A program made the translations under genes and the position numbers. Under the pieces are notes generated by a model, which saw only the letters and a list, made by a program, of their open reading frames with translations, was not told the DNA's origin and ran no database searches. Below are positions 44,740 to 62,389 of a stretch of DNA of 64,000 nucleotides, one piece after another. The first letter of the stretch is position 1, and the number at the start of each line of letters is the position of its first letter. Source of the DNA: Sinohyriopsis cumingii (Eukaryota > Mollusca > Bivalvia > Unionida > Unionidae); contig CM068841.1 in assembly GCA_028554795.2 (NCBI GenBank), forward strand, positions 27,459,721 to 27,523,720. Reading direction: 5' to 3'.

Positions 44740-45242
44740 AGTAGTATAAGGGGTGAGATTAGCGACAATGGGAATTAGCATTAAAAACACCCCCTGGGTA
44801 AGATTAGCGACAATGGAAATTTAACATTAACCACCCTGGGTAAGATTAGCGACAATGGAAATTTAACATGGGCAGAAAACCCTGGGTAAGATTAGCGACA
44901 ATGGAATTTAACATTGGAGAAAGGAAAAAAAAGGAAATATTGAGATTAGCGACAAAGGCATTCGAACAATGGAAAAAAATATCGATTCTAGGGACAAAGG
45001 CAATTGAACATGGGGAATAGAGTTTGGGTCTGTCTAGGGACAAGGGGAATTGAACATGGGAATAGAGTTTGGGTTTGTCTAGGGACAAAGGGGAATTGAA
45101 CATGTTAGAAAAAAAACTACTTTAGAGACAAGGGAAATTGAACATGGGATTTTTTTTTTAAAAACAATTTTTATAAAGGGGTAGGCAATCGAAAGGCTAT
45201 CTCTTTTCGAGAAATGTGGGTGGCCCTGAAAAGGGCCTTTGG
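44740..45242. repeat. Left terminal inverted repeat of copy C
   Basis: 503 bp matching 62291-62818 in inverse. The outer 250 bp are degenerate units of about 40 bp with the core ATTAGCGACAATGG. Then come units with CTAGGGACAAGGGGAATTGA. The inner edge is the histone-type hairpin. Confidence 0.95.
45199..45237 (-). terminator. Histone-type 3' end of left small gene, copy C
   Basis: Perfect 16-nt GGCCCTTTTCAGGGCC (45237-45222), followed by ACCCA and TCTCGAAAAGAGAT (45212-45199). It starts 24 bases after the stop at 45262. No AATAAA was seen between stop and hairpin. Confidence 0.88.
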
Positions 45243-45261
45243 ATTTATGTTAATATTAATA

Positions 45262-45489
45262 TTAACATAGACGGCATCTGTCACATCTTCTTCTTAAACT
45301 CCTTCTAACTGCAGGTCCATACACAAGTACCCTCTTGAGGCATCCTTGTCTTTCTATGTAAACTCTTCTCATCCATAGACTAGTATCTGTCCTATCAACA
45401 ACAGTCCACTTGGACCGGACATACATGAGCATGTCCGTCCTAAACATCATTGAAGACACAAGGGTGGATGATTCAACTGTGGTCCACAT
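45262..45489 (-). CDS. Small basic accessory protein (75 aa), copy C
   Basis: Leftmost gene, transcribed outwards toward the terminus. ATG at 45489; TATAAATAA at 45541-45533. Residues 1-25 are Ser/Thr/Met-rich, the middle (SKWTVVDRTDTSLWMRRVYI) looks like a small beta domain, and the end is Arg-rich with CDRCRLC. Isoelectrically very basic. Retained as an open frame in copies A, B and C. No family recognised. The basic Arg/Cys tail suggests nucleic-acid binding, but this is inference. Confidence 0.75.
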   Translation of the reverse strand: MWTTVESSTLVSSMMFRTDMLMYVRSKWTVVDRTDTSLWMRRVYIERQGCLKRVLVYGPAVRRSLRRRCDRCRLC

Positions 45490-45708
45490 CGTGAGGCGAC
45501 GAGAACAGGTGAATCAATGCAGTGAACTGCGCTTATTTATAGGTAGAGGAAGGATTGAAACGGATTGAGTTCATTCACCAATCCGAACACGCGTTACAAA
45601 ATTCAATCAGTCCGCATCCAATCCGAAGAGAGCAGTCTGTGACGTCATGTGGTCTATATAGATTCGCTAGCGCCTGTGTGCTGTCAATCTATGCGACAGT
45701 GATTCAAC
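45490..45708. promoter_or_regulatory. Divergent promoter with CCAAT boxes
   Basis: Serves the small basic gene (TATA at 45533-45541) and the Gln-rich gene (CTATATAG at about 45653). Several CCAAT-type boxes (CCAATCCGAA at about 45578 and 45619) and CGCG between them. The same plan is kept in copy A. Confidence 0.65.
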
Positions 45709-46266
45709 ATGACGGAAACTCAGAAAACGATCCATTGGGGTGCACCAGCAGTGGAGACCGCCCAAGGGAACCCGGACTTACTTTCAGAAGAGGTACATTG
45801 GGATTTTGTGGATTTTCTTACCTCGCAAGAATTTGTTCCGGAACCTTCGTCTCATTCTTCATTACCGCAAGTGGAGAATTTTAGACAGAGACAGAAAGAA
45901 GAATTGGAGAAATTTATGCAACGACAAAAGGAAGCGGAACAAGCTTTTCTCCTACAGCAACAGCAACAGCAACAAGAAGAGGTAAGAAAAAAACAAGAAG
46001 AAGAAGAAGTAGCAGCAAAGAAACAAGAGGGTGAAAATCAAACGGCTACGGTACTGTTGGACATTTTAGCGGAGTTAAGAAGTCTGAAACAAATGTATCA
46101 GACTTCTTTATCACGACCGAAGAGAATACGACCTTCCCGAGCTAAACACGCCAACCCTGTGACTAAGCCTATCGTACCACCCTTAGTGATTTCAACCCAA
46201 TCATCATCATCAGAAGTAGGCTTCGGCCGTGGCAAAGGCTTAAGACAGTTAAAGTTGATTGCTTAA
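45709..46266 (+). CDS. Gln-rich coiled-coil accessory protein (185 aa), copy C
   Basis: ATG at 45709 after a TATA box. Acidic N-terminus (residues 1-50) with HWDFVDFLTSQEFVPEP, a Gln/Glu/Lys coiled coil at about 58-110 with a Q(n) run, a short hydrophobic helix (LLDILAELRSLKQMY) at about 120-135 and a basic Ser/Arg/Pro tail ending GRGKGLRQLKLIA. The acidic-to-coil-to-basic plan might suit a regulatory or assembly adaptor; no family is recognised. It is followed by a histone-type hairpin 22 bases after the stop. Confidence 0.7.
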   Translation: MTETQKTIHWGAPAVETAQGNPDLLSEEVHWDFVDFLTSQEFVPEPSSHSSLPQVENFRQRQKEELEKFMQRQKEAEQAFLLQQQQQQQEEVRKKQEEEEVAAKKQEGENQTATVLLDILAELRSLKQMYQTSLSRPKRIRPSRAKHANPVTKPIVPPLVISTQSSSSEVGFGRGKGLRQLKLIA

Positions 46267-46287
46267 ACTCACCCCTACACCAAAAAA

Positions 46288-46328
46288 GACCCTTTTCAGG
46301 GCCACCCACTTCTCTCGAAAAGAGATAG
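46288..46328 (+). terminator. Histone-type 3' end of Gln-rich gene, copy C
   Basis: GACCCTTTTCAGGGCC (46288-46303), preceded by CCAAAAAA, followed by ACCCA and CTCTCGAAAAGAGATAG. One A-C mismatch in the second pair, where copy B has G. Confidence 0.85.
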
Positions 46329-46556
46329 CCTTTCAATTTGCCAATAACTCAAAAATCAACAACAAAAAAAAAACATTTTACCCTTATAGTACATGTCTGT
46401 GTATGAGTGCGTGAGTGTAGCTTCTTATTTTAAAATCAAAACTCAAAGACACTTACCTTATATAATTAATGTATTCTTTTCTCCATAGTTACAATCCAAT
46501 TCACAATTCACAACAGAACACTTTATAAATTACATTCACTTCTTCTGTTTCTTTTT

Positions 46557-46988
46557 TTACTCTCTCTTTTTTTTCAATTTCTTCACCGTCACAGTCTTTT
46601 CCTCCTCTTCCTCCTCACTTTCTTCCCTTCTTCTTTTCTTCACCTGGCTGCTTTCTTCCTCTGAAGAATCTCTCTCTTCTTCTGAAGAATCCCTCTTTTC
46701 TTCCGACTCCTCTTGTTTCTTTTTTGGGCAATCTGGAGACCAATGTCCTTTTTCTTGACAATAATAACAGGTATCTTGACTTTTGTCTTTTCTAGCCCCT
46801 GTTTTTGTTCTTTTTTGACGGTCTGGGCACTCTGAAGACCAATGCCCTTTCTTCTGACAGATATAGCAAGTATCTTGACTTTTATCTCGAAAGGAAGGAG
46901 AGTAGTCCGTCGGCTGGTCTGAAGAGAATTTTCTAATGACCCCTCGCAAAGCTCTGATGAAACGTTCCATCGGGGTAGTCTCTTCCAT
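46557..46988 (-). CDS. CCHC zinc-knuckle protein (143 aa), copy C
   Basis: Convergent with the Gln-rich gene and divergent from the polymerase. The ATG at 46988 is preferred: the open frame reaches 47036, but only through a GTG, and the TATA box TATATAAAAAGG sits at 47053-47042. Two knuckles, CYICQKKGHWSSEC (about residues 39-52) and CYYCQEKGHWSPDC (about 71-84). Then an acidic Ser/Glu repeat (EEKRDSSEEERDSSEEE) and a Lys-rich end. It resembles the knuckles of CNBP and retroviral nucleocapsid. Likely a single-strand DNA or RNA binder, perhaps in replication or packaging. Confidence 0.75.
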   Translation of the reverse strand: MEETTPMERFIRALRGVIRKFSSDQPTDYSPSFRDKSQDTCYICQKKGHWSSECPDRQKRTKTGARKDKSQDTCYYCQEKGHWSPDCPKKKQEESEEKRDSSEEERDSSEEESSQVKKRRREESEEEEEEKTVTVKKLKKKRE

Positions 46989-47249
46989 CGTTGTGCTCGG
47001 TTTGAGAGTGAAATGAATAGTAAAAGGACAAGACACACACCCTTTTTATATACGCTGGTTTGCCATGACTATAAATTAGTCTATGGTGTTTAAACTTGAG
47101 TCATTTGACGTTTTGCACTCAAGATGAAACGATCCTATTAATTCGAGAAGAAAGAAGAAGAAGAAAGTAAGAGGCAGAAACGTGATCTATCGCCTCGTAC
47201 CAGAGCTGAAATCTTGGCACAAATTCATGCCAGTGATTTTGAAGAGGAC

Positions 47250-50200
47250 ATGAGTGAACCAGAATCCGAACCCTCTAAACAAAGTTCACCACTCTTAGTC
47301 AACCATGAAAAGTACTATTCCATTCGAGAGACGGAAAAGCGCTCCTCTAGAAAATTTAGAACCACGGCTTACACCTACACAGTGAAGTTTAAAGATTTCA
47401 AGTCCGACGTACCATTGGAGAAAGCAGAAGGGTTTATCACCGAGATGTGGGATTCTTTGCTCACCGCACTCAAGCGACAATGTCAACCCAAAGAAGACGA
47501 TCGCTTGACACTATCCATAGATCACGACAACTTGAAATCCCCTGTTTGGATCGAGTTTAGCAGACCCGCAGAACTAACCCCTTCCAAAGTCATGGACAAG
47601 ATTCAACACGTAAAACAATCTAATGACCAGTTTGACATCACCAATGGTAAAGCCACACTGAAAATGGCCCACGTCTCTCCTCCTCAAGGGACCGGACAAC
47701 GCAATAAGGTGTTATTGGTGAACGACCTTCGCAACACCAAAAAGAGTCTCGTCCAAATTCACAATTCTCAAGACCAGATGTGTTTAGCCCGAGCCATCGT
47801 GGTGGGACGAACCTATGCCAACAAGAACGACACGGTAGAATGGAAAAGAGCCTGGAAAACTATTCAACGATCCGACCGAGCCAAACAACGAAACGAAGCA
47901 GAACTCCTGTTGCAACAAGCCGGGCTGTCCAAAGACACACCCTGTGGCATTCCTGAGATGCAGAAATTGCAAGATGTCCTAGCTCCACTCTACACCTTGA
48001 AAGTGCACCCTCAAGAAATGCGCGGACCTCTGTTGTTTCGAGGGAAAGACTTTAAGGACGGAAAATACATTCATGTCTATTATCACGATGACCATTTCGA
48101 TACCATTACCACTATCACTGGATTCCTGGGATACAGTTATTACTGTGAGAAATGTGACTATGGCTATAACAATCGAGAGCAACACAAACATTGCGGATGG
48201 AAATGCCCAGGATGTTTGGCCTCTTCACCCTGTCTGAGCGAAGGACAAGAAAGAGTACAATGTCCTGCTTGTCTGCGCACGTTTGTCAGCCCTGCCTGTT
48301 ACCAACAACATCTGAAGACGCAAGGTTCACAGCAGAACTGTGCTTGTCAACTGCTGAGATTGTGCCCTACGTGTCGAAAAGGCCTACGTACCAATAATAC
48401 CAAGGCACACGTATGTTCAGGAAAGAAAAAATGTCACATTTGTCACCACATCGTGGACTTGGAACACCAATGCTACGTGGAAAAATACCAACCCCCACCA
48501 CAGAAAGAGGACGGTCACAAGAAGAAAGGCAATTTCATCTTTTTCGATTTCGAATGCATGCAAGAGACTGGCATTCACATTCCTAATTTCTGCGTGGCTC
48601 ATCGAGCGTGCGAGAAGTACATTCAAGAACCTATCTTCAGTCATTGCCCTCACTGCAGCAAGATTCCCGGAGGGCGTGAAAAAATCTTTCGAGGACCGAA
48701 CACGTTAGCCGATTTTGCCCAATGGGTCTTAGATCCCATCGACAAGACGTGGAGCCAAGAGGACATCGAACGTTACGGAGATTGTCATCGTCATGCCACG
48801 GTGATGGCTCACAATTTCTCCGGATACGATGGACAGTTTCTTTTGAGGTACTATACAGAACATGGCACCGAACGTCCTAAAGTCACTTTGAACGGAGCCA
48901 AAATCATTTTCATGCAAGTGGGACAAGAGCAGTTTAAAGATTCGATGAGTTACTTGGCCATGCCTTTGAGTCGAATGCCTAAAACGTTTGGAATGACAGA
49001 AATGGCTAAAGGTTATTTTCCTCACTTTTTCAATACGGAAGCCAATCAACACGCCGTTCTACCCCATTTGCCTGAGGCTCACTATTACGACCCCGACAAC
49101 ATGCGTACCGAACAACGAGAAGCTTTCTACGCTTGGTACCAGACTCACGCCTCCGACCCTTTCGACTTTCAGGAAGAAATGCTAAAGTATTGTCGTTCTG
49201 ACGTGGACATTTTACGGCGTTGCTGTGGAAAGTTTCGAGAACTGTTCATGGAACACGGAGGGGTCGATCCTTTGAAAGAAGCTTGCACCATTGCCAAAGC
49301 GTGTTCCTTAGTGTATCGACAACGATTCATGCCTGAAAACACCGTGGCTGTCATCAGTCCTCAAACGACCCACTATGTCAAACGTCAATACTCGGTCAAA
49401 GCCCTACGTTGGTTACATTACTTGTGCGACAAGGAAGACAAATGGATTCAGCATGCCCGCAACGGAGGAGGCGAAAAGACCATCGGAACGTATTCGGTCG
49501 ATGGGTGGGACTTAGAAAACCCCAAGATCGTGTACGAGTTTAACGGTTGCTTATTTCACGGATGTCCCGTCTGTTACCCAGATCGTAGCACTAAAAATCA
49601 GTTTTTACAACGAACCATGGAAGACTTGTACGAGGACACTTGTCAGCGACGCCTAAAGTTAGAACAGCAAGGATACCAAGTGGTGGAAATGTGGGAACAC
49701 GAGTACGATCACCGTATGAAAACCGATCCCGAGTTTAAACGTGCCGTGGAAAGTTACAAGCTGATGGACCCCCTAAACCCGAGGGATAGTTTGTACGGAG
49801 GAAGGACCAATGCCACCTGTTTGCTGTATCAAGCCGACGAAGAGAAAGGAGAAGCAATCAAATACTTGGACGTGTGTTCGCTGTATCCTTACGTGTGCAA
49901 ATATTGTCCCTTTCCTGCAGGGCACCCAGAATTGTTCACGGAACACATCGACCTGAAAAACATTCGACAATACGAAGGCTTGATCAAGTGTAAAGTTTTG
50001 CCTCCCACGAACCTATACCATCCCGTCTTACCTCACCATTGTCAAGGCAAACTGATGTTTCCATTGTGCCGTACTTGTGCCGAAACGTGCAACCAAGACC
50101 AACCTTGTCAGCACACCCAGGAAGAACGTGCCTTGACGGGAACCTGGATCAGCGTAGAATTGTTCAAAGCTCTGGACATGGGATACCAACTGTTAGAAGT

Positions 50201-51197
50201 GTACGAAATTTGCCACTTTCCCAAGACACAACAATACCACAAGGGTGACCTCAGTCAGAAAGGCATTTTCGCCGACTACGTGGATGCCTTTTTAAAACTG
50301 AAGCAAGAAGCCAGCGGCTATCCGTCCTGGTGTCACACTTCCGAAGACGAAAAGACATTCAAAGAGAAATACTATGAACAAGAAGGCATCTCTTTAGACC
50401 ATATCGAGAAAAACGAAGGCAGGCGGTCGTTTGCCAAAGTGATGTTAAATTGCTTGTGGGGTAAAATGGCACAACGACCGTGTTTACCCAAGACGGAATA
50501 TTTGACAGAACCTTCCCGCTACTTTCAGATGATTCACGACAAAACCAAATACATGAAACACGTGGACGTCGTTCGCGAGGATTTGATCTTGGTCAATTAC
50601 GAAGAAGATCTGGACTTTGTACAAGACGACCCCTTTGGAAATGTCATCATTGCGGCTTACGTGACAGCTCATGCTCGCTTAAAATTGTACCAAGCTTTAG
50701 AACTGTTAGGGGAACGTGTCCTGTACTTTGACACGGACAGTTGCATTTACATCCATCACCCGAGTCAACAGCACCCTGACATCGAAGGAGACCGTTTAGG
50801 AGCCTGGACAGACGAACATCCCGACGACAAGATTCTAAGTTTCGTCAGTGGTGGTCCCAAAAATTACGGCTACGAATACCGGGACCCACAAGGAGAATTA
50901 CACACGACGTGTAAAGTGAAAGGATTGACTCTGAATTATCGTACCAGTCGTGTGGTGAACTTTGGGGTATTGAAAGAAGCCTTGCAATCGGGAGAGGATG
51001 CAAACTTTAAAGTGACCACCTATCAACCAAACAAAATTGTACGTTTACCCACTCACCACATCGTCAGTCGGCCCTTGGAAAAAGTCTATCAAATCGTGTA
51101 CCAGAAGCGAGTGCGACTTCCCAATCATTTCACCTTACCGTATGGACACGTCGGTATTGGTCTGTATATAAAAAGAAACCCTAGGCAAGATCGATAG
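47250..51197 (+). CDS. polB: Protein-primed family B DNA polymerase, copy C
   Basis: Replicates the element from its protein-bound ends, as in Polintons and adenoviruses. From the ATG at 47250 (1315 residues): N-terminal region with several Cys/His pairs (YYCEKCDYGY, CPACLRTFVSPACYQQHL, CPTCRKG, CHICHHIVDLEHQC); exonuclease motifs FDFE at about 433, AHNFSGYDGQF at about 525 and YCRSDVD at about 651; polymerase A DVCSLYPYV (Asp 874), B KVMLNCLWGK at about 1065, C FDTDS (1161). All catalytic residues are present. The frame is open upstream to a TAA at about 47140, preceded by an ATG (47124) with only five codons, so the true start is uncertain. The last 20 codons look like run-on into the next promoter. 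Confidence 0.95.
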   Translation: MSEPESEPSKQSSPLLVNHEKYYSIRETEKRSSRKFRTTAYTYTVKFKDFKSDVPLEKAEGFITEMWDSLLTALKRQCQPKEDDRLTLSIDHDNLKSPVWIEFSRPAELTPSKVMDKIQHVKQSNDQFDITNGKATLKMAHVSPPQGTGQRNKVLLVNDLRNTKKSLVQIHNSQDQMCLARAIVVGRTYANKNDTVEWKRAWKTIQRSDRAKQRNEAELLLQQAGLSKDTPCGIPEMQKLQDVLAPLYTLKVHPQEMRGPLLFRGKDFKDGKYIHVYYHDDHFDTITTITGFLGYSYYCEKCDYGYNNREQHKHCGWKCPGCLASSPCLSEGQERVQCPACLRTFVSPACYQQHLKTQGSQQNCACQLLRLCPTCRKGLRTNNTKAHVCSGKKKCHICHHIVDLEHQCYVEKYQPPPQKEDGHKKKGNFIFFDFECMQETGIHIPNFCVAHRACEKYIQEPIFSHCPHCSKIPGGREKIFRGPNTLADFAQWVLDPIDKTWSQEDIERYGDCHRHATVMAHNFSGYDGQFLLRYYTEHGTERPKVTLNGAKIIFMQVGQEQFKDSMSYLAMPLSRMPKTFGMTEMAKGYFPHFFNTEANQHAVLPHLPEAHYYDPDNMRTEQREAFYAWYQTHASDPFDFQEEMLKYCRSDVDILRRCCGKFRELFMEHGGVDPLKEACTIAKACSLVYRQRFMPENTVAVISPQTTHYVKRQYSVKALRWLHYLCDKEDKWIQHARNGGGEKTIGTYSVDGWDLENPKIVYEFNGCLFHGCPVCYPDRSTKNQFLQRTMEDLYEDTCQRRLKLEQQGYQVVEMWEHEYDHRMKTDPEFKRAVESYKLMDPLNPRDSLYGGRTNATCLLYQADEEKGEAIKYLDVCSLYPYVCKYCPFPAGHPELFTEHIDLKNIRQYEGLIKCKVLPPTNLYHPVLPHHCQGKLMFPLCRTCAETCNQDQPCQHTQEERALTGTWISVELFKALDMGYQLLEVYEICHFPKTQQYHKGDLSQKGIFADYVDAFLKLKQEASGYPSWCHTSEDEKTFKEKYYEQEGISLDHIEKNEGRRSFAKVMLNCLWGKMAQRPCLPKTEYLTEPSRYFQMIHDKTKYMKHVDVVREDLILVNYEEDLDFVQDDPFGNVIIAAYVTAHARLKLYQALELLGERVLYFDTDSCIYIHHPSQQHPDIEGDRLGAWTDEHPDDKILSFVSGGPKNYGYEYRDPQGELHTTCKVKGLTLNYRTSRVVNFGVLKEALQSGEDANFKVTTYQPNKIVRLPTHHIVSRPLEKVYQIVYQKRVRLPNHFTLPYGHVGIGLYIKRNPRQDR

Positions 51198-51230
51198 TTC
51201 ATTGTGACTACCAAGACCGAGCGAACAAGA

Positions 51231-51578
51231 TGAATACTTTCAGAGAAACACAAAACAAGTTTAGACAGGCACAATTCAAGTGTGGGGCTTCTGAAGTGGA
51301 ATGCGATTGTGAACCTTGCGACTTTTCAACCTGTGTTAGTGACGGTGCCAGAAGAACCCGTCACCCAGGACGGGACTGTCGTGGACAGGCCTGAAAGACC
51401 CTTTCGGTCGGACACTTGTGTGACCTTACCCCCTACTATAGAACTGGTTAGAACATTACCCAAAACATGTTGTACAGACATTTGTGTTTATTCCACGTTA
51501 ATGGTTATCATGTGCCTTTTATCCTTATACTTAAGCCTTTGGCTTTTATGTATTTTTGTCTTTCGTATTCATGTTTGA
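51231..51578 (+). pseudogene. Collapsed accessory gene (BIR cassette deletion scar), copy C
   Basis: The ATG at 51231 (MNTFRETQNK) matches the start of the BIR gene of copy B at 27497. A different frame (51282-51578) matches the tail at 29655-29948 with PVLVTVPEEP, RPFRSDTCVTLP and a C-terminal hydrophobic anchor (LSLYLSLWLLCIFVFRI). The two parts are out of frame and the BIR domains between them are gone. TATA-like TGTATATAAAAAG at about 51163 and AATAAA at 51586 remain. Confidence 0.7.
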
Positions 51579-51585
51579 AACATTC

Positions 51586-51591
51586 AATAAA
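51586..51591 (+). terminator. Poly(A) signal AATAAA
   Basis: CATTCAATAAACG just after the collapsed accessory gene and before the TATA of the ATPase. It shows that core-region genes use ordinary polyadenylation. Confidence 0.7.
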
Positions 51592-51662
51592 CGTGTTCTG
51601 AAAAAAAGTATATAAACTCTTGTCTTGTTTGTTTTCGTGTCACAAGTGACATTTCTCACACT

Positions 51663-52391
51663 ATGGCTACCTCTGCTGTCTCTGCTCCCTCTTCCTCTAC
51701 TGTCAAAGTCATCGACGAACACTTAGATCGTGCCAGTTGGGAGGCTTTGTATCTTCGCCATCCCTCTAACATGCTCATTGCTGGACCTAGCGGTTCAGGC
51801 AAAACCGAATTCGTCAAACGTTTGATCGAACATAAACATCATTTGATCGATCGGCCACCTCAACGGATCGTGTGGTGTTACAAAGAGTGGCAATCGGCGT
51901 ACAGCCTCTTCCGAGAAAGTCAAGGCGATTCCATCGTGTTTGTGGAAGGCATTCCTAAAGAAGACGACGGCATCGTCTCTGACTCCCGTCTAACCCATTT
52001 GGTCATTTTTGACGACATGTTAGGAGAAGACGAAGAAGAAATTAAACTGTGGTTCACGCGCAAAGGGCATCACCGTAATGCCAGTGTCGTTTACATCACC
52101 CAAAATTTGTTTCAGCAAAGTAAAGCCCATCGCACCATCAGTCTCAATGCGCATTACGTGGTCTTGTTTAAAAGCCCTCGAGATAAATCGCAAGTGCAAG
52201 TCTTAGCCAAACAGTTAGGAACGCCTTGGCTGACTCAGGCGTACGACGATGCCACTCAAACTCCACACGCCTATTTACTCGTCGATTTGAAACCTACGAC
52301 CCCCGAGGATTTGCGATTTCGTACCCACTTGTTTCACCACTGGTGCCAAGACGGAGGGCCTGTCCTGTACACGTCTCCGTCCTCGACTTAA
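51663..52391 (+). CDS. DNA-packaging ATPase (FtsK/HerA type, A32-like)
   Basis: 242 residues, ATG at 51663, about 50 bases after GTATATAAAC. Walker A GPSGSGKTEF at residues 41-50, Walker B HLVIFDDML at about 117, and a VVYITQN sensor-like segment at about 150. The length is normal for Polinton ATPases. Role: drives genome packaging into capsids. Followed by TCTATAAAAACC, the promoter of the next gene. Confidence 0.92.
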   Translation: MATSAVSAPSSSTVKVIDEHLDRASWEALYLRHPSNMLIAGPSGSGKTEFVKRLIEHKHHLIDRPPQRIVWCYKEWQSAYSLFRESQGDSIVFVEGIPKEDDGIVSDSRLTHLVIFDDMLGEDEEEIKLWFTRKGHHRNASVVYITQNLFQQSKAHRTISLNAHYVVLFKSPRDKSQVQVLAKQLGTPWLTQAYDDATQTPHAYLLVDLKPTTPEDLRFRTHLFHHWCQDGGPVLYTSPSST

Positions 52392-52457
52392 TTTCATTCC
52401 ACAGAAAAAATCTATAAAAACCTCAGACCCTTTTCGTCTGTATCACACAGCGTCAAC

Positions 52458-53848: not shown

Positions 53849-53897
53849 AAAGGCCCTCGGAAGTCCCAAGATTTCAAGATCGACCCCTGACAACCCC

Positions 53898-54533: not shown

Positions 54534-54553
54534 CACACCAACCAACACAAAAA

Positions 54554-55663
54554 ATGGAAAAAGTCTTAGCCAGCATTTACTACGATCCCTCCCATCCTGC
54601 AGGTTACGCAGGAGTTCAAAAATTGTATCGTGCTGCCAAAACTCGATTGAAAAGTCTCCGTTTACCTCAAGTGCAACGATGGTTACAAGAACAAGCTACC
54701 TACACTTTACACAAACCCATTCGACGCAAGTTTGCCAGAAGTCGCACCCGAGTGGAAGGCATCGATCATCAATGGCAAGCCGATTTAGCCGATGTCTCTC
54801 ATTTGGCCAGCTACAATCGTGGCTACAAATATTTGTTTTGTGTCATCGACGTCTTTTCCAAATTTGCCTGGGTCGTGCCCTTGACTTCCAAATCGAGCAG
54901 CGGGTTAGTGCGAGCCCTGCAACGAGTGTTGAAACAAAGTGGCCGTCACCCTCTTCGATGGCAAACGGACAAAGGCACCGAATTTCTGAACCAAGCTTTC
55001 CAAAAAGAATTAAAGAAACGTGACATTCATTTTTTTACCACCGAGAATCCCGAAACCAAAGCCAGCATCGTGGAACGTTTTCAACGCACTTTGAAAGAAC
55101 GCATGTGGAAATATTTTACGCATCACCACACTCTGAAGTACATCGACATCTTACCGCACCTGGTGCAAGCGTACAACCAATCTTACCATCGAAGCATCGG
55201 ACGTGCCCCGCAAGACGTGACTCCCGAGAACGAAGTGTTGGTGTTTGAGCGCCTGTTTGGTACGTCCCCGACGAGGGCTGTCCCCAAGAAAAGTGGAGAG
55301 TTGGCCGTAGGAGATTGGGTGCGCATTGGCAAAATCAAACGCACTTTCGACAAAGGTTACTTACCTAACTGGACGACCGAATTGTTTCGCGTCACTGGAC
55401 GAGTGCATGGCCGTCATCCTGCCGTCTATAAATTGGAAGACATGAACGGAGAAGTGCTCAAAGGAACGTTTTATTTGCCCGAGTTACAACGTGTGACCAA
55501 AAAAGAAGACGACGTGTACGACATCGAAAGCATTCTCGAACGCAGAACCGGTAAAGTGGGCAAACGACGTGTCAAAGAAGTCAAAGTACGTTGGAAAGGA
55601 TATCCACCCAGTTTTGATTCTTGGATCGACGCTTCGCAAGTCAGCGACTATAAAAAGAAGTGA
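54554..55663 (+). CDS. int: DDE integrase with chromodomain (369 aa)
   Basis: Retrovirus-like integrase that inserts the element into host DNA. ATG at 54554 (the frame opens earlier, but only via GTG at 54518). Catalytic triad: Asp77 in WQADLADV, Asp139 in WQTDKGTEF, Glu174 in SIVERF, with 34 residues between the last two. The N-terminal zinc-binding segment is not obvious. After the core, a chromodomain at about 318-366: YDIESILERRTGK, VRWKGYPPSFDSWI. Such domains read histone methylation and steer insertion. Whole gene absent from copy B. Confidence 0.95.
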   Translation: MEKVLASIYYDPSHPAGYAGVQKLYRAAKTRLKSLRLPQVQRWLQEQATYTLHKPIRRKFARSRTRVEGIDHQWQADLADVSHLASYNRGYKYLFCVIDVFSKFAWVVPLTSKSSSGLVRALQRVLKQSGRHPLRWQTDKGTEFLNQAFQKELKKRDIHFFTTENPETKASIVERFQRTLKERMWKYFTHHHTLKYIDILPHLVQAYNQSYHRSIGRAPQDVTPENEVLVFERLFGTSPTRAVPKKSGELAVGDWVRIGKIKRTFDKGYLPNWTTELFRVTGRVHGRHPAVYKLEDMNGEVLKGTFYLPELQRVTKKEDDVYDIESILERRTGKVGKRRVKEVKVRWKGYPPSFDSWIDASQVSDYKKK

Positions 55664-55668
55664 CCATC

Positions 55669-56061
55669 ATGCCCTTTCACACAGACGCAGCTACGTCGAC
55701 CACTCCTCCTTCACCTAGTTCTTCTGTGCAAGATTTACAAAAAGAACCCTTGTGAGTGTGGTGTGGAGAACGTGTGCCTAAAACGCAAATCGTCTTTTTC
55801 TGCCAAATCTTCGTGGTGTATTGTGTCATCGGGGCAGCCATCGCCAATTTGAGTTTGCAACAAGGAGACAAACAATTGTGGACCATTTTATTGAGCAGTT
55901 GCATCGGTTACCTGCTTCCCTATCCCTCCCTGAAATTCTCCTCGAACGGGAACCACGGGAACCTTTGTGTCCAGTGCCAGTGCCAGTGCCAGTCACCACT
56001 CCAACAACAATCACAACCAGAACCTCATTTTGGGCGGAGACACGCCTCTGACGTCCAGTAA
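55669..56061 (+). pseudogene. Two-helix membrane protein interrupted by one TGA
   Basis: ATG at 55669, five bases after the integrase stop. The first 28 codons are Ser/Thr/Pro-rich, then a TGA at 55753-55755, then the same frame continues: cytosolic WCGERVPKTQ, a long hydrophobic helix (IVFFCQIFVVYCVIGAAIA), a short loop and a second helix (LWTILLSSCIGYLLP), then a Cys/Gln and Ser/Thr tail to 56061. The stop may be a single mutation or read through. Small membrane proteins occur in adintovirus genomes; function unknown. Confidence 0.6.
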
Positions 56062-56091
56062 CCCCTCAGACTGCCACAGAACTCTGGAATT

Positions 56092-57006
56092 ATGAGTCAA
56101 CAAAACCAATTTTACTTGACCTTACCCAGTGACAGTTCCATGGAGGTGTTCCCCAACAACACGTTGTGCTGTTACACGGCCAAATTACCTCAAACCATCC
56201 AGTTAGATCACGAAGCCCATTGGGAAGTGGCTTTGGTACAAATGATTCATCCTACACAAATCCAAAACATCACCGAAAAGCAAAACACTTTTGAGGTTGA
56301 AATCCTGAACCAACAATTACAAGAAGTCATGAATGACATCGGGTTTTCAGGGGACACAAGACCATCCAACAATTCACCCTTCAATATCTACACCTTGAAA
56401 ATTCCGGCAGGGTTTTATTTTAGTGGTCAACATTTGGTGGACACCATTACTTCCAGGTTCGAGTTAGCCTTTGGCAAAGCCCTGAACAGAGTCAAAAAAA
56501 GTGTCACCCTGGAGTACCATAAAGTGGCTCGTCGCTTACTGATGAAATTTCGGGATACCCAAACGTTGTCCATCAGTTTTAATCGTGACTTGTTTGATAT
56601 TTTAGGTGGAGACACAAAAATAGCTCCAAATTTTAAACCGAAGATCAACAGCAATACGGAATTTTACAAGTTTTTTCGATTCCCTGTAGAACTGAACCAA
56701 GGACTGAATTTGATGTTCGTGTACTCCGATGTGGTGGAGTATAGCGTGGTGGGACACACCTCTGTGCCGTTACTGCGTGTCATTCCTTTCAAAGTGGATA
56801 ATACCACAACCAGTGACCAGGAAGGTGGAAACACTTACCACGTCCACCGGGAATTTGTACATCCTCATTATTTGCCTGTCAGCAAGTCGTATTTGGACAC
56901 GGTCAACATTGCTATAAAAGGAGATTTGGGACAAAATATTCCATTCACCAAAGGAAAAGTCACGGTGAAACTCCATTTTCGAAAACGGTTCTCTCACGAC
57001 TCGTAA
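56092..57006 (+). CDS. Minor capsid (penton-like) protein (304 aa)
   Basis: ATG at 56092. The FYLTLPSDSSMEVFPNNT start and the HEAHWEVALVQMIHP segment are hallmarks of the Polinton minor capsid, predicted as a single jelly roll at capsid vertices. The rest is beta-rich (GFYFSGQHLVDTI, RVIPFKVDN) and it ends VKLHFRKRFSHDS. Immediately precedes the core-like protein (three bases apart). Truncated in copy B. Confidence 0.88.
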   Translation: MSQQNQFYLTLPSDSSMEVFPNNTLCCYTAKLPQTIQLDHEAHWEVALVQMIHPTQIQNITEKQNTFEVEILNQQLQEVMNDIGFSGDTRPSNNSPFNIYTLKIPAGFYFSGQHLVDTITSRFELAFGKALNRVKKSVTLEYHKVARRLLMKFRDTQTLSISFNRDLFDILGGDTKIAPNFKPKINSNTEFYKFFRFPVELNQGLNLMFVYSDVVEYSVVGHTSVPLLRVIPFKVDNTTTSDQEGGNTYHVHREFVHPHYLPVSKSYLDTVNIAIKGDLGQNIPFTKGKVTVKLHFRKRFSHDS

Positions 57007-57009
57007 GTC

Positions 57010-57426
57010 ATGTATCCAGTGTATCGAGGGGTTGCTCGACAGCGAGGACACGGTTTAGGAGATATGTTAAAATCGGCCTTTCGTTCGGTGGCCCCAGTGT
57101 TGAAACCGATGGTGACACGCGGATTGCACGCCTTGAAAGATGCGGCACTGACGCAAGGCAAAGAATTTCTCCAAAATGTCATCATCGACAAACAAAACCC
57201 TAAAGAAGCCTTTATGAGGGCAGGCAAAAATGTCTTGCTGCAAACAGGCAAAGACCTTTTGGGCCGACGCGAAACACCTATAAATGCCCTGCACGCTACC
57301 GAGTCAGGCATTCAGCAAGGACAAGGCAGAAAGAGACGACGAAGAAAACACCCTTTCACCAGACTTCAAGCTAGAAAGGCAAAGAAAAGAAGAACCGTTC
57401 CAGACTTAGACGTTTTCGATTATTGA
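57010..57426 (+). CDS. Small basic core-like protein (138 aa)
   Basis: ATG at 57010. Begins MYPVYRGVARQRGHGLGDML, then an amphipathic, Ala/Leu-rich helix region and a strongly basic tail GRKRRRRKHPFTRLQARKAKKRR. Resembles adenovirus pX/VI-type core or minor proteins in size, charge and place between minor and major capsid genes. DNA condensation or capsid lining is inferred. Its last codon lies 18 bases before the major capsid ATG. Confidence 0.7.
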   Translation: MYPVYRGVARQRGHGLGDMLKSAFRSVAPVLKPMVTRGLHALKDAALTQGKEFLQNVIIDKQNPKEAFMRAGKNVLLQTGKDLLGRRETPINALHATESGIQQGQGRKRRRRKHPFTRLQARKAKKRRTVPDLDVFDY

Positions 57427-57443
57427 GACACAGCAACAAAAAA

Positions 57444-58754
57444 ATGATGCACCGAGAGTCTTGCGCCTGTTCCAAGACGGAACTGGATCTGTTTGCCATG
57501 CCACCCACCATGATGACCATGCAAGAATCCCAATGGGTGGAATTTCATCCCGTCTCCTCATTGACCGATTCCGCTCCCATCGAGTTTGAAATCAAAGGAC
57601 AGCCCGAAGATTACATCGATTTGAATAGCAGTTACTTGTACTTGAAAGTCAAAGTTCAAGATAAGGATGGAAATGCTATAGACACTGAGCCAGTAGCTCC
57701 CGTCAACAATTTCATGCATTCCTTGTTTAGCGGAGTGGACTTGTACTTGAATAACAAACTAGTCAGTAGCAGCATGGATACTTACCCTTATCGAGCGTAC
57801 CTGGAAAATCTCTTGACGTACGGAATAGACGTCAAGAACACTCATCTCAATGCCTGTGTGGTATGGGAAGCTGACGATGCAGGAGAATTTGAAACATTCA
57901 AAACTGATACAGCCAAAGACCACAATGCGGGATTTGTAGAACGAAGAGACAGAATCAAAGACGGACACAGTTTAGAACTGATGGATCGTTTGCATTTGGA
58001 CATGTGGTTGCAAGAAAAATATTTGCTGAACGGGGTGGATGTCCGCCTGAGACTGAATCGGAGCAGTGCCGCTTTCCATTTAATAGCTGATAGTGACGAT
58101 AATTACAAAACCAAAATCCAAGAAGCCAGACTCTACGTACGCCGTGTGGAAGTGTTACCTAAAGTGGGAAACGACATCAGTCAGACGTTGAGCAGAACGA
58201 CCGCCAAGTATCCGATCCGACGCGTAGAAGTGAAAACCTTCACCATTCCTAGGGGACAGCGATCCATGATTGAAGATCATCTGTTCCAAGGACAGTTACC
58301 CAAACGTTTGATTGTTGGTATGGTCGAGAATACAGCCTTCAACGGAGCTATCGCTAAAAATCCTTTCTACTTTCAACACTTTGACGTGTCCAAGATCGAA
58401 GTCAGTCGCGATGGCAAGACCTTGTGTACCCGACCTTTCGAACCTAACTTTGACAAGAAGAATTACTTGAGGTCGTACCTGTCGCTGTACGAAGCCACGG
58501 GACAGTTAGGAACCAACACCAGTCACGGCATTACGTACGAGGATTATGCAAGAGGCTACGCTTTGTGGGCTTTCGATTTCACTCCAGACCAAGGCAGCGA
58601 CGAGGGACATTTCCACCCTATAAAATCTGGCCAGATTCGTGTGGAACTTCAGTTTGCAAAGCCACTGGACGAGACAGTGAACGTCATCCTGTATGCAGAA
58701 TTCGATAATACCATAGAAATCAACAGTTTGAGAGAAGTCATTCTAGATTACTAG
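57444..58754 (+). CDS. Major capsid protein (436 aa), Polinton type
   Basis: ATG at 57444 (a second at 57447; upstream TTG frame ignored). Conserved N-terminal signature: TELDLFAMPPT, WVEFHPVSSLTDSAPIEFEI, EDYIDLNSSYLYLKVKVQ, then NNFMHSLFSGVDLYLNNKLV and YPYRAYLENLLTYG. C-terminal half with FDFTPDQGSDEGHFHPI and a hydrophobic IEFNNTIEI-type end (FDNTIEINSLREVIL). The family (including C. elegans F54H12.2-like proteins) is predicted to be a double jelly-roll capsomer. No stops or frameshifts. Confidence 0.93.
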   Translation: MMHRESCACSKTELDLFAMPPTMMTMQESQWVEFHPVSSLTDSAPIEFEIKGQPEDYIDLNSSYLYLKVKVQDKDGNAIDTEPVAPVNNFMHSLFSGVDLYLNNKLVSSSMDTYPYRAYLENLLTYGIDVKNTHLNACVVWEADDAGEFETFKTDTAKDHNAGFVERRDRIKDGHSLELMDRLHLDMWLQEKYLLNGVDVRLRLNRSSAAFHLIADSDDNYKTKIQEARLYVRRVEVLPKVGNDISQTLSRTTAKYPIRRVEVKTFTIPRGQRSMIEDHLFQGQLPKRLIVGMVENTAFNGAIAKNPFYFQHFDVSKIEVSRDGKTLCTRPFEPNFDKKNYLRSYLSLYEATGQLGTNTSHGITYEDYARGYALWAFDFTPDQGSDEGHFHPIKSGQIRVELQFAKPLDETVNVILYAEFDNTIEINSLREVILDY

Positions 58755-58759
58755 AAGCT

Positions 58760-59242
58760 ATGGAAGACTGTTATCCCTCTTTACCTAGTGGAGAAGCTTT
58801 GAAGATGGAATGTGAGGAGACCGTGGAAGGAGAATCCCAACACAAAGACGAAAAGGACATCGTGATCAAGTCGAGATGGCCAGAACAAGAACAGCAATTG
58901 GTCTCCTACTATGCTACATACCTGGCAGACACAATTACGACATCGATGAAGCATGATTACTATGGATGTCAAAACATCAGTCAAGAAGAAAAATTCAACG
59001 AATATCTGGACGAAGCTTGGAGTCTGTTTAAAAAAGACGTGTTACGTTGGTGGTATAAAGACTTTCGTGAACATTTCTGTCCTCCATTAACGACTCGAGA
59101 CATCCATTACATCAAAACCCTCTTTGACAAATTCAAAGAGAAAGTCGAGATCGAAATTGATCACTTATTATCAGCAAAAGAACATTTAGTGACTTATTTT
59201 GATCGTGATTTTTCTAGAAACGATGAGAAAGTAAATCGTTGA
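58760..59242 (+). CDS. Accessory gene fused to the protease tail by deletion (160 aa)
   Basis: ATG at 58760, five bases after the major capsid stop. The first 130 residues (MEDCYPSLPSGEALKMECEE, helical EEKFNEYLDEAWSLFKKDV) correspond to the gene at 33220 in copy B. From about 59180 (HLVTYFDRDFSRNDEKV) it matches the 3' end of the protease of copy B. The catalytic protease sequence is absent, so this ORF is a deletion product. Its own role is unknown. Confidence 0.75.
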   Translation: MEDCYPSLPSGEALKMECEETVEGESQHKDEKDIVIKSRWPEQEQQLVSYYATYLADTITTSMKHDYYGCQNISQEEKFNEYLDEAWSLFKKDVLRWWYKDFREHFCPPLTTRDIHYIKTLFDKFKEKVEIEIDHLLSAKEHLVTYFDRDFSRNDEKVNR

Positions 59243-59245
59243 TTT

Positions 59246-59593
59246 TGTGACTAGTATGCTTATTTTGTTGTCTTAAGCTAGGAAACGTAGTGTCCATCCA
59301 TGACTCAATGACTTGCAACAGTGGAAATCACAATTTCATTCACAACGTTGCCAACCCTGTTTACAGTAGAGTGTAAATTGAAAAAAATGTTTGATGTTAT
59401 ATTGTTGGATTATTGTTAAAAAATGTTAGAGTTGTTGGTTAGTGTTAAGTGATTTTTGAATAAAAAATGATGTGTTTTGAAAAAAATGCCTTTGTGATTT
59501 GTTTGGCTATAAGAATGTTTGATTCATGCTCTTTGACTTCTTACTATCCCTCTCATGACACTCATTGAACATTGCGGCTCGAAAACCGTGGAG
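59246..59593. other. Post-capsid spacer with poly(A) signal
   Basis: Non-coding remains of the protease tail (59243-59350) and AATAAA at 59459-59464, which ends the central gene block. AT-rich otherwise. Confidence 0.6.
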
Positions 59594-59640
59594 GGATGTT
59601 TTCCTTCACGTCCGCGCTTTGACTTTAAGAACCGGGTTGT
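59594..59640 (+). promoter_or_regulatory. Right-arm promoter module 1, copy C
   Basis: GGATGTTTTCCTTCACGTCC at 59594-59613 then GCGCTTTGACTTTAAG with a weak TATA-like CTTTAAG. It precedes the accessory gene at 59683. Confidence 0.7.
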
Positions 59641-59682
59641 TTCCACTCTAACCATCCATTGTCGACTCATCCTCCTACGAAG

Positions 59683-60048
59683 ATGTGCTCCAAACTAGCT
59701 AAGCTAAACGAAGCCTACGTGAATTTGCATAGGGTCAGACACAGTCTGATACCGAAGCCAGAAGAGATAGAGAATGTGAGAATGCTAAAAGTCACTGAAG
59801 ACTTGATAGAAGAACTCTTCAGAGAAGAAGTGAACAGGGAGAAAGAAGAATGGACAGAGAAGTACAGACTTCAGAGACAGCAGCAGCAACAACAACAACA
59901 GCAGCAGCAACAGCAGCAGGAACCTGAACCTGAGAGAGGCTTTGTCGATTGTCGTATCGACACCAAAGAGTTCTTCTTCTCTTTCCGAAGAAGCAGACCT
60001 ATCGCCAGAAAGTCTATCCTCAGAGGACATCGCATTCTTAGAAACTAA
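59683..60048 (+). CDS. Right-arm accessory protein 1 (121 aa), Gln tract
   Basis: ATG at 59683 (the frame is also open to a TTG at 59659). Helical N-terminus MCSKLAKLNEAYVNLHRV and EIENVRMLKVTEDLIEELF, a charged coiled coil, a run of 15 Gln from CAG/CAA codons (59878-59922), then GFVDCRIDTKEFFFSFRRSRP and a basic end. Probably paralogous to the next two genes (K-L/M-x-K-L start and a leucine heptad). Histone-type hairpin 44 bases after the stop. Confidence 0.65.
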   Translation: MCSKLAKLNEAYVNLHRVRHSLIPKPEEIENVRMLKVTEDLIEELFREEVNREKEEWTEKYRLQRQQQQQQQQQQQQQQEPEPERGFVDCRIDTKEFFFSFRRSRPIARKSILRGHRILRN

Positions 60049-60091
60049 AAGATTGCCATAGCAAACAAAAAAAAAAAAAAAAAAGAAAATC

Positions 60092-60131
60092 AGCCCTTTT
60101 CAGGGCTACCCCAATACTCTAGAAAAGAAAT
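60092..60131 (+). terminator. Histone-type 3' end, copy C right arm 1
   Basis: AGCCCTTTTCAGGGCT (60092-60107), ACCCC, then CTCTAGAAAAGAAAT. The outer pair A-T replaces the G-C of the left-arm hairpins, on both sides of the stem. Confidence 0.88.
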
Positions 60132-60485
60132 AACAATCAATTTGCCAATGTGTGTAGGTAGAGTAGTGTTAATATAAACACTAACTCTTTTTTATAGTGT
60201 GAGGGTATGTGTTTGTGTGTTTGTGTTTGTAACATCTCACGTACGTTGGTGTGGATAGTAGATTAAGATCATGTTTTTTGGCTGTTTGAGGTGTGGGGAG
60301 AGTAGATTTGGGGGGGGGGTTTTGATTGGATTGCTTTGCGTATGTGAATAGTATATTGGAGTGATTAATGAAAAAAAATTTTAGAATAGGAATGGGTAGT
60401 ATAAAAAAGTGAGTGAGTGTTTCTTTTAGGTCCGCGCGTTGTTTTTTGGTCATGATCTAGGTAAGATCAATTTTGTTTTTTAGGG
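60132..60485 (+). repeat. GGATAGTA repeat spacer, copy C, first field
   Basis: Spaced GTGTGGATAGTAGATT-like units, a G tract at 60311-60319, and the TTTCTTTTAGGTCCGCGCG box at 60419-60437. Non-coding. Confidence 0.7.
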
Positions 60486-60530
60486 GGATGTTTTCCTTCA
60501 CGTCCGCAGTTTTAGTATAAATTGAAACTC
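60486..60530 (+). promoter_or_regulatory. Right-arm promoter module 2, copy C
   Basis: GGATGTTTTCCTTCACGTCC, then GCAGTTTTAGTATAAATTG with the TATA box GTATAAAT. Confidence 0.75.
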
Positions 60531-60572
60531 GTTCGGCAGTCCAGCTACCCTTGTTGATTGATCAACACCAGA

Positions 60573-60950
60573 ATGAACACGAGACTGGCGAAACTGTTGG
60601 AACTTCATGTGCATCTGGAATATGCCAGGAGCCTGTTGAACGAACTGGCCGCGGAGGCCATTGTGGAAGAAGGAAGGATGAGAGAGGAGGAGGAAAGAAG
60701 AAATAAAGAAGAGGAGGAGAGAAGATACAAAGAAGAGGAGGAAAGAAGATACAAAGAAGAGGAGGAGAGAAGATACAAAGAAGAGGAGGAGGAAAAGGAG
60801 AAAAGAAGAAGAAATTTCAGAATCCCAGAAACCGAAAATTGGGATTCTGAAGCCACATATCCTGCCTCTGCTCTCTCCCCCAAAAAAGTAAAAAGCAACT
60901 GGGGAACAAGATGTGTATGTGGCGCCAGGCCTGGAAGGTGCCACCATTAA
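60573..60950 (+). CDS. Right-arm accessory protein 2 (125 aa), Glu/Arg/Lys repeats, tail frameshifted
   Basis: ATG at 60573. N-terminal MNTRLAKLLELHVHLEYARS helix, then several tandem units of EEERRYKE (about residues 38-75), a coiled coil with high charge, and FRIPETENWDSEAT. The last part CVCGARPGRCHH is out of frame compared with copies B and E, which carry a conserved VxGLGDxxI(N/S)QV block there. In copy C that block lies in the other frame directly before the hairpin, so one base was probably lost or gained near 60890. Confidence 0.6.
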   Translation: MNTRLAKLLELHVHLEYARSLLNELAAEAIVEEGRMREEEERRNKEEEERRYKEEEERRYKEEEERRYKEEEEEKEKRRRNFRIPETENWDSEATYPASALSPKKVKSNWGTRCVCGARPGRCHH

Positions 60951-60979
60951 CCAGGTGTCCATGAAGTTCAAAAAAAACC

Positions 60980-61018
60980 AGCCCTTTTCAGGGCTACCCA
61001 ATACTCTAGAAAAGAAAT
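60980..61018 (+). terminator. Histone-type 3' end, copy C right arm 2
   Basis: AGCCCTTTTCAGGGCT (60980-60995), ACCCA, then CTCTAGAAAAGAAAT. Nearly the same as the signal at 60092. Confidence 0.88.
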
Positions 61019-61034
61019 AACCATCAATTTGCCA

Positions 61035-61082
<48 letters not shown>
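61035..61082. repeat. (GT)n microsatellite
   Basis: About 24 GT units after the hairpin. Confidence 0.95.
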
Positions 61083-61084
<2 letters not shown>

Positions 61085-61139
61085 GTAGAGTAGTGTGAAT
61101 ATAAACACTAACTCTTTTTTTATAGTGCGAGTGTATGTG

Positions 61140-61680
61140 TTTGTGTGTTTGTGTTTGTAACTGCTCACGTAAGTTTGTGTGAATGGTAGATTATGGGTTT
61201 CTTTATTGTTTCTTAGCGTATGTGAAGAGTATAGTTTGGGTTTTGTAACCGCTCACGTACGATTGTGTGGATAGTAGATTATGGATTTTGTTTATTGTTT
61301 CTTAGCGTATGTGGAGAGTATAGTTTGGGTTTTGTAACCGCTCACGTACGATTGTGTGGATAGTAGATTATGGATTTTGTTTATTGTTTCTTAGCGTATG
61401 TGGAGAGTATAGTTTGGGTTTTGTAACCGCTCACGTACGATTGTGTGGATAGTAGATTATGGATTTTGTTTATTGTTTCTTAGCGTATGTGGAGAGTATA
61501 GTTTGGGTTTTGTAACCGCTCACGTACGATTGTGTGGATAGTAGATTATGGATTTTGTTTATTGTTTCTTAGCGTATGTGGAGAGTATAGTTTGGGTTTT
61601 GTAACCGCTCACGTACGATTGTGTGGATAGTAGATTATGGATTTTGTTTTAATGATTTGCGTGTGTAAATAGTAGATTTG
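61140..61680 (+). repeat. 89-bp tandem repeat array
   Basis: Five nearly identical units starting GTTTGGGTTTTGTAACCGCT at 61234, 61323, 61412, 61501 and 61590, exactly 89 bp apart. Each contains GCTCACGTACGATTGTGTGG, then ATAGTAGATT. Flanked by diverged units. An amplified form of the GGATAGTA spacer motif. Non-coding. Confidence 0.92.
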
Positions 61681-61742
61681 GGGTTTGTTTATTGTTGCTT
61701 CACTTATGTGGATAGTATATTATATGAAATGAGAAAAGTAGG

Positions 61743-61766
61743 GGATGTTTTCCTTCACGTTCGCGC
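61743..61766 (+). promoter_or_regulatory. Right-arm promoter module 3a, copy C
   Basis: GGATGTTTTCCTTCACGTTC, then GCGCG. No TATA box follows at the usual distance. Confidence 0.6.
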
Positions 61767-61809
61767 GTTGTTTGGTCATGATCTAGGTAAGATCAATTTT
61801 ATGTCTTGG

Positions 61810-61850
61810 GGATGTTTTCCTTCACGTCCGCGCTTTTCGTATAAGAACCC
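61810..61850 (+). promoter_or_regulatory. Right-arm promoter module 3b, copy C
   Basis: GGATGTTTTCCTTCACGTCC, then GCGCTTTTCGTATAAGAA with TATA-like GTATAAG. Drives the gene at 61886. Duplicated with 3a. Confidence 0.75.
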
Positions 61851-61885
61851 ACAGTATTCGTCGTTCAAACCATTCTACAAAGAAG

Positions 61886-62389
61886 ATGACTTCGAACCAC
61901 CTTGACAAAATGCAAAAATTACAAGACGTTTTAGACAATTTAGGAATAATGGAGCAGGTGTTAGTGAGACTCAATGATGACCACTATTCCTATAGTCCCC
62001 ATCGACTAGAGATGGAAATTAATAACTTAAGAAACGTAAAGGACATAATAAGTGGTGTCATGAAAGAGATAAAGGAGGAGAAGGAGGATGAAGAGGAAAG
62101 GATAAGAATACGAAAATGGAATGAAAAAATTGAAAAAGAAGAAGAAAATGAGAAGAGGAAGAAAGAAGAGGAGGAAGAGAAGAAGAAAGAAGAGGATAAA
62201 AAAAAAGAAGAAAAAGAGTGTAGGAGAGAAAATAAGAAGTTGGTGGAGAAAAAGAAGAAATTAGAAGCAGAAGAAGAAGAAGAAGAAAAACCAAAGGCCC
62301 TTTTCAGGGCCACCCATATTTCTCGAAAAGAGAATGACTTTTCAATTGCCTACCCCTTTTTTAAATTTAAATTTAAATTTAAATTTTAA
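61886..62389 (+). CDS. Right-arm accessory protein 3, coiled coil, no stop before hairpin
   Basis: ATG at 61886. MTSNHLDKMQKLQDVLDNLG, then DDHYSYSPHRLEMEINNLRN (conserved with copies B and D), then a very long Glu/Lys coiled coil. The frame does not stop before the hairpin at 62296. It runs through the stem-loop to 62389 in copy C, so about 30 codons are encoded beyond the hairpin. The equivalents in B and D stop earlier. Function unknown. Confidence 0.65.
   Translation: MTSNHLDKMQKLQDVLDNLGIMEQVLVRLNDDHYSYSPHRLEMEINNLRNVKDIISGVMKEIKEEKEDEEERIRIRKWNEKIEKEEENEKRKKEEEEEKKKEEDKKKEEKECRRENKKLVEKKKKLEAEEEEEEKPKALFRATHISRKENDFSIAYPFFKFKFKFKF

Follow-up and report, generated by a model that had tools for sequence, protein, structure and literature searches.

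The analysed window, 64,000 nucleotides (nt) of Sinohyriopsis cumingii contig CM068841.1, contains an intact-looking Polinton, denoted e3, and broken remains of other copies (Table 1). Here we describe the histone-type hairpins that follow several accessory genes of e3. The element resembles Polinton/Maverick elements and adintoviruses in its type B polymerase, integrase, packaging ATPase and capsid homologues, and in its 6-bp target duplication and long inverted repeats. Its identical terminal repeats and the duplicated AGTGGC indicate a recent insertion. Pfam identified the type B polymerase, an FtsK/A32-type ATPase and an rve integrase with a chromo domain. The putative major capsid protein (MCP), a label of our own with no Pfam assignment, had 697 homologues, and the animals named among the 120 matches listed were oysters and one periwinkle, which points to a mollusc as the probable host.

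An initial annotation of this DNA listed 13 hairpins and read them as the 3' processing signals of replication-dependent histone mRNAs. All 13 were present in the sequence, and matches to the Rfam family Histone3 (RF00032) do exist in the window. At gathering thresholds, the only Rfam matches in the window were two to Histone3, at hairpins 1 and 5 of e3, and the other 11 sites fell below the cut-off of 34 bits. A relaxed search (E ≤ 10) matched 10 of the 13 sites, including all five of e3 at E ≤ 1.1e-3, and left sites 21118, 35913 and 36891 unmatched. We also built a covariance model (R1) from 11 sites, with 865 and 35032 held out, and searched 84 kb comprising the window and two relatives of the element, L001 and L002. 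R1 recovered all 13 sites at E ≤ 2.5e-11, with the next-best match at E 0.35; the held-out sites were found at E 2.5e-11 (865) and E 6.8e-13 (35032). A hand-made score combining hairpin, ACC and purine element, with 20 Markov-simulated windows as background, reached 13.5 at five of the real sites; two others scored 11.5 and 9.5, and the best simulated value was 12.0. The remaining six sites were outside the top 30 among the matches listed, because their hairpins are shortened or mismatched.

The hairpins are not spread evenly over the window: 12 of the 13 lie within stretches alignable to the intact Polinton, and the remaining one (35913) falls between two such stretches. The sole other Histone3 match in the window, at 3684-3640 on the minus strand (27 bits), was rejected: it has no purine element, reaches only E 0.35 under R1 and lies outside the aligned Polinton segments, near a long interspersed nuclear element (LINE)-like open reading frame (ORF). 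This LINE-like ORF (4556-5119 and on) interrupts the Polinton fragments.

The sites share more than a hairpin. Four of the five e3 hairpins are perfect 6-bp stems with a 4-nt UUUC-type loop, and one carries an A.C mismatch. The purine element expected downstream was found at every site, its GAAAAG or GATAAG core starting at a distance of 28-30 nt from the first base of the hairpin (13/13); cores of the AG class in e3 read GAAAAGAA, not GAAAAGAG. A third block, TTGCC, lies 15-21 nt after the purine core, also at 13 of 13 sites (e.g., 46338-46342); a random 25-mer would contain it with a probability of 0.02. Together with the hairpin and the purine element, TTGCC forms one travelling block of ~55 nt. 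Across 12 pairwise comparisons, identity was 0.88-1.00 in the 16-nt hairpin and 0.69-1.00 in the purine stretch. In the flank 60-200 nt downstream, nine comparisons gave 0.47-0.61 and the other three 0.71, 0.80 and 0.90; two of these three were between terminal-repeat and tandem duplicates. Two hairpin classes occur, with an outer G-C pair (6 of 14 rows) or A-U pair (5 of 14, one being the rejected 3684 match), and paired cells amounted to 86.7% over the 14 rows of this alignment, which includes the rejected match.

In e3, the hairpins start at 45237 on the minus strand and at 46288, 60092, 60980 and 62296 on the plus strand, and the asymmetric order hairpin-ACCC-purine follows the strand of the gene at all five. 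Four of them lie 24, 21, 43 and 29 nt behind the stops of same-strand ORFs of 75, 185, 121 and 125 amino acids (aa), as measured from stop to hairpin for the e3 sites. The earlier claim that each hairpin stands on the coding strand near an accessory ORF thus held for four of five in e3, with two corrections. The ORF belonging to site 45222 is a minus-strand frame of 75 aa (45489-45262), and site 62296 falls within ORF 61886-62389. If the five sites were independent, which they are not, at least four of five falling within 50 nt of an ORF of at least 75 aa would have a chance of ~9e-6, with the 75-aa cut-off having been chosen after the genes were seen. Sites 45237 and 62296 form an inverted pair in subterminal repeats just inside the terminal repeats, and 60092 with 60980 resembles a tandem duplication, which reduces the independent contexts in e3 from five to about three.

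Table 1 Features of the Polinton e3, its hairpin signals and accessory genes, and other copies in the window
Feature	Position	Strand	Details
Polinton e3, intact-looking	44740..62818		18,079 bp; terminal repeats, target duplication and gene set
Terminal inverted repeats of e3	44740-45115 and 62443-62818		376 nt, 100% identical
6-bp target duplication AGTGGC of e3	44734-44739 and 62819-62824		Read in the sequence
Hairpin 1 GGCCCTTTTCAGGGCC	45222..45237	-	RF00032 match 45242-45197 at gathering threshold, 42.5 bits, E 3.2e-9; R1 67.3 bits
Purine core and TTGCC after hairpin 1	45201-45208; 45184-45188	-
75-aa Arg-rich accessory gene	45262..45489	-	Stop 24 nt before hairpin 1
Hairpin 2 GACCCTTTTCAGGGCC, one A.C mismatch	46288..46303	+	RF00032 28.1 bits, E 7e-4; R1 66.7 bits, E 2.4e-15
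Purine core and TTGCC after hairpin 2	46317-46324; 46338-46342	+
185-aa accessory gene, divergent partner of the 75-aa gene	45709..46266	+	Stop 21 nt before hairpin 2
AATAAA	51586..51591	+	389 nt past the DNA polymerase gene stop
AATAAA	59459..59464	+	After the last core gene
121-aa accessory gene	59683..60048	+	Stop 43 nt before hairpin 3; motif GTTTTCCTTCACGTCCGC at 59598-59615
Hairpin 3 AGCCCTTTTCAGGGCT	60092..60107	+	RF00032 E 1.1e-3; R1 61.1 bits
Purine core and TTGCC after hairpin 3	60122-60129; 60142-60146	+
125-aa accessory gene	60573..60950	+	Stop 29 nt before hairpin 4; upstream motif at 60490-60507
Hairpin 4 AGCCCTTTTCAGGGCT	60980..60995	+	RF00032 E 1.7e-4; R1 64.0 bits
Purine core and TTGCC after hairpin 4	61009-61016; 61029-61033	+
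Right-end accessory ORF, open through hairpin 5	61886..62389	+	Motif at 61814-61831 and, with one mismatch, 61747-61764
Hairpin 5 GGCCCTTTTCAGGGCC	62296..62311	+	RF00032 match 62291-62336 at gathering threshold, 40.8 bits, E 1.4e-8; R1 67.6 bits
Purine core and TTGCC after hairpin 5	62325-62332; 62346-62350	+
Older broken copy e2	21083..36927		Sites 21133(-), 22267, 35032, 35913, 36891 (+); R1, blastn map
Fragments e1	1-1263 and 2399-2826		Sites 865(+), 2433(-); R1, blastn map
Polinton fragment	37489..37652	-	Site 37587(-); R1, blastn map

The two left-hand genes diverge from a common region. The 75-aa gene has the sequence TATAAATA 52 nt upstream of its ATG, and its frame differs between e3 and e1 by 26 synonymous and 17 nonsynonymous changes. 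Its product had one database homologue, P0141 (81% identity over 79%). The 185-aa protein had 20 homologues at E ≤ 10, and its structural model, of low to modest confidence (mean predicted local distance difference test score 68), shows a long helix at residues 53-134; the C-terminal part of the protein is basic. In a gapped alignment of e3 with e2, the 185-aa gene shows 22 synonymous and 89 nonsynonymous differences; the e2 copy therefore looks decayed and gives no support for constraint. The 75-aa homologue and one 185-aa homologue have the same sources, and the contigs of both are 1455 nt long. The two probably lie on a single contig, in which case the divergent pair would be conserved. By eye, the divergent promoter at 45490-45710 contains repeated CCAAT-like sequences, TGACGTCA and two TATA boxes, a likeness to the promoters of divergent histone gene pairs.

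A TATA-like sequence stands 46-57 nt before the ATG in four of the five hairpin genes. The three right-hand genes have in common the upstream motif GTTTTCCTTCACGTCCGC, with no mismatches at 59598, 60490 and 61814; a further copy lies at 61747 in e3, and copies also occur in e2 at 35330 and 36404. With 0-2 mismatches allowed, the motif is also found at 8806 on the minus strand, and TATAAA or TATAAG follows it in five of seven places. An 89-bp tandem repeat occupies 61109-61738, upstream of the right-end accessory gene. No histone family was found among the Pfam matches of the five hairpin-gene products, and no LxCxE motif in seven e3 products (these five and two others). A PHROGs search with the capsid protein and the products of the five hairpin genes (six proteins) gave only weak matches, the best of which (E 1.9e-4) was to a glutamine-rich stretch of the 121-aa protein.

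The older copy e2 shares the five-site layout of e3, with aligned pieces 69-84% identical, and its ORFs ending at 35819 and 36823 precede sites 35913 and 36891. Another copy is represented by P0131, a member of the 185-aa family from a 1150-nt contig (sources jgi and ena), which lacks the usual stop and reads on into QWPISGPPTSLEKRYYVNCQFQ. This extension is 62% identical over 29 residues (E 1e-7) to an e2 frame that spans the hairpin, the ACCCA region, the purine element (EKR) and TTGCC (NC). Another element copy therefore keeps the module at the same place, as known from the protein alone. A protease-like segment of e2, recognized by eye at 33625-34109 and a candidate for the adenovirus-type protease of Polintons, has no Pfam match and no counterpart in e3 (compared with 59124-59180) despite the perfect terminal repeats of e3, which may depend on other copies for it.

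We consider it highly probable that this Polinton family ends several of its accessory genes, none of them a histone gene, with genuine histone 3' signals of the type handled by the stem-loop-binding protein (SLBP) and U7. The interpretation put forward in the initial annotation is to this extent supported by the sequence. From it we infer cutting, use of the host SLBP and U7, and expression mainly in S phase, the last by analogy with histone biology. The host RNA polymerase II would transcribe the accessory genes, the host SLBP would then bind the hairpin, and the host U7 small nuclear ribonucleoprotein (snRNP) would pair with the purine element ~13 nt further on. The 5' end of the host U7 would be expected to pair with GAAAAGAG and to be complementary to GAAAAGAGATA. 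The message would be cut ~5 nt past the hairpin and left without poly(A), and accessory genes would be expressed mainly in S phase, when a DNA-replicating Polinton would profit most. The host machinery is expected because histone mRNAs of the bivalve Lucina pectinata carry the palindrome, as described in the available part of PMC6210712.

A number of observations weigh against this interpretation. The main anatomical one is that ORF 61886-62389 runs through hairpin 5, so that a histone-type cut would leave its message without a stop codon; at the counterpart of hairpin 5, the frame is likewise open through the hairpin in e2 and has a stop before it in e1. Hairpin 2 carries the mismatch and folds with four strong pairs, and the zinc-knuckle accessory gene (46988-46557) has no hairpin signal detectable by R1. 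The flanks are kept only in part. An ACCCA-like sequence had been reported usually to follow the hairpin; ACCCA itself is exact at 6 of 13 sites (4 of 5 in e3, where the shorter ACCC is present at all five), and CCAAA before the hairpin is likewise exact at 6 of 13 (2 of 5 in e3). Covariation is weak, with too few independent rows: one pair varies on both sides, and shuffles reach the observed score in 45 of 500 cases and the percentage paired in 69 of 500. Pairing of the five e3 sites with vertebrate U7 was equalled by 4.0-11.8% of shuffles and so showed no clear excess over them, but the relevant partner is the host's own U7. In L. pectinata, only a part of the histone genes are described as having purine-rich elements nearby, and these elements lie at unusual distances (PMC6210712, available part).

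The relatives of e3 also count on this side. L001 and L002 were found with a capsid alignment in genome contigs, and their MCPs are 44-45% identical to that of e3. Neither partial contig gave a Histone3 or R1 match, so the hairpin signal may be a trait of one lineage. Most accessory regions of the annelid-associated L001 lie off its contig, and the L002 contig extends 5.5 kb beyond the capsid gene. Both are filed under bacterial metagenome-assembled genomes (an endosymbiont of Escarpia laminata and Breoghania sp.) and are probably animal DNA in bacterial bins. In a viral contig collection, three forms of the exact hairpin pattern gave 0 matches each. No relatives of e3 were found there by capsid protein, capsid alignment or polymerase, so the absence of the hairpin from that collection is uninformative about Polintons.

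Poly(A) signals bear on whether the hairpins direct 3' cutting. Neither AATAAA nor ATTAAA occurs from ~60 nt before to 300 nt after any of the five e3 hairpin starts. However, such hairpins could bind SLBP on polyadenylated messages and govern stability, export or translation instead of cutting, a reading that we regard as improbable. Two further points against histone-type cutting speak for it: TATAAA, which can be either a TATA box or a rare poly(A) variant, lies downstream of four of the five hairpins, 63-236 nt from the hairpin start, and AATAAA or ATTAAA is missing within 300 nt of the stop in 9 of 10 core ORFs and in the zinc-knuckle gene, so that its absence near the hairpins does not exclude poly(A). 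The AG-class core GAAAAGAA of e3, in place of GAAAAGAG, also suits this reading. On the other side stands the purine core at its fixed distance of 28-30 nt, which would be superfluous if the hairpin alone had a role.

It is very unlikely that the blocks are DNA-level signals, such as subterminal sites for replication, packaging or recombination, that merely resemble histone ends. The inverted pair 45237 and 62296 just inside the terminal repeats and the TTGCC block conserved at all 13 sites would fit such signals, but the three other e3 sites are internal, the order of hairpin, ACCC and purine element tracks gene strand in five of five cases, and the Histone3 match is specific. Similarly doubtful in the extreme is capture of a host histone 3' end that was copied along and is now a functionless fossil: the signal does move as a ~55-nt block and two site pairs are duplicates, but most comparisons show the block better kept than the flank downstream of it, and the genes that precede it in e2, e3 and the P0131 copy are related.

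The element e3 may have two classes of mRNA 3' end, a proposal whose chances we put at about even. Core genes would be polyadenylated, and the terminal accessory genes would form a poly(A)-minus, SLBP/U7-processed class of S-phase-timed regulatory genes with compact promoters. Compact promoters are seen in the hairpin genes as the TATA sequence in four of five and the upstream motif shared by the three right-hand genes. However, most core genes also lack a near AATAAA, so the hairpin genes are not set apart and no clean two-class split emerges. On the plus strand, e3 has three AATAAA sequences, at 51586, 59459 and, inside a coding region, 60702; that the core genes share the two distal sites is a guess. 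In L001, AATAAA also follows the capsid/protease block, as judged by eye. The plus-strand count of three compares with a simulated mean of 9.9 (standard deviation 3.2; lowest of 60 simulations, 3), and the minus strand has 10 against a simulated mean of 6.4, a comparison that is suggestive at most.

The e3 signals resemble the metazoan replication-dependent histone 3' end (RF00032), which is processed by SLBP and the U7 snRNP, in the UUUC-type loop, ACCC at five of five sites, the purine core at +28-30 nt, the short 3' untranslated region at four of five genes and the lack of an adjoining AATAAA. They differ, so far as sequence alone tells, in that the genes are non-histone genes of a mobile element and that TTGCC is added. 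Histone-type accessory 3' ends also distinguish e3 from Polinton/Maverick elements and adintoviruses; none were found in the partial relatives L001 and L002. Loop 27 of potato spindle tuber viroid has the same loop sequence and modelled three-dimensional form as the loop of the histone stem-loop, but the viroid lacks the extended stem that SLBP needs and its plant hosts have no known SLBP; the available part of PMC6827988 assigns loop 27 a role in trafficking and replication, not 3' processing, and describes no purine element. Histone-encoding DNA viruses such as Medusavirus (PMC11500106, available part) are likewise virus-like DNA with a histone connection; they share a histone protein, whereas e3 shares an RNA 3' signal.

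The initial annotation knew of no earlier description in Polintons, and our search agrees: among the titles and beginnings of abstracts listed from open PubMed Central papers, subscription papers being outside its scope, none described mRNA 3' ends of the histone kind in Polintons or other DNA viruses. The signal is a familiar one; what is new, as far as we searched, is its use by a virus-like element for genes that are not histone genes. In animals, this kind of 3' processing is seen as all but confined to histone genes. If the interpretation is correct, the pathway could be borrowed by a mobile element or virus for non-histone genes, and the accessory genes of this Polinton family would provide a natural set of non-histone SLBP/U7 substrates. 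Poly(A)-selected RNA sequencing would miss such transcripts, and the accessory genes could therefore look silent. The signals would also offer a direct route to asking whether Polinton replication coincides with the S phase of the host.

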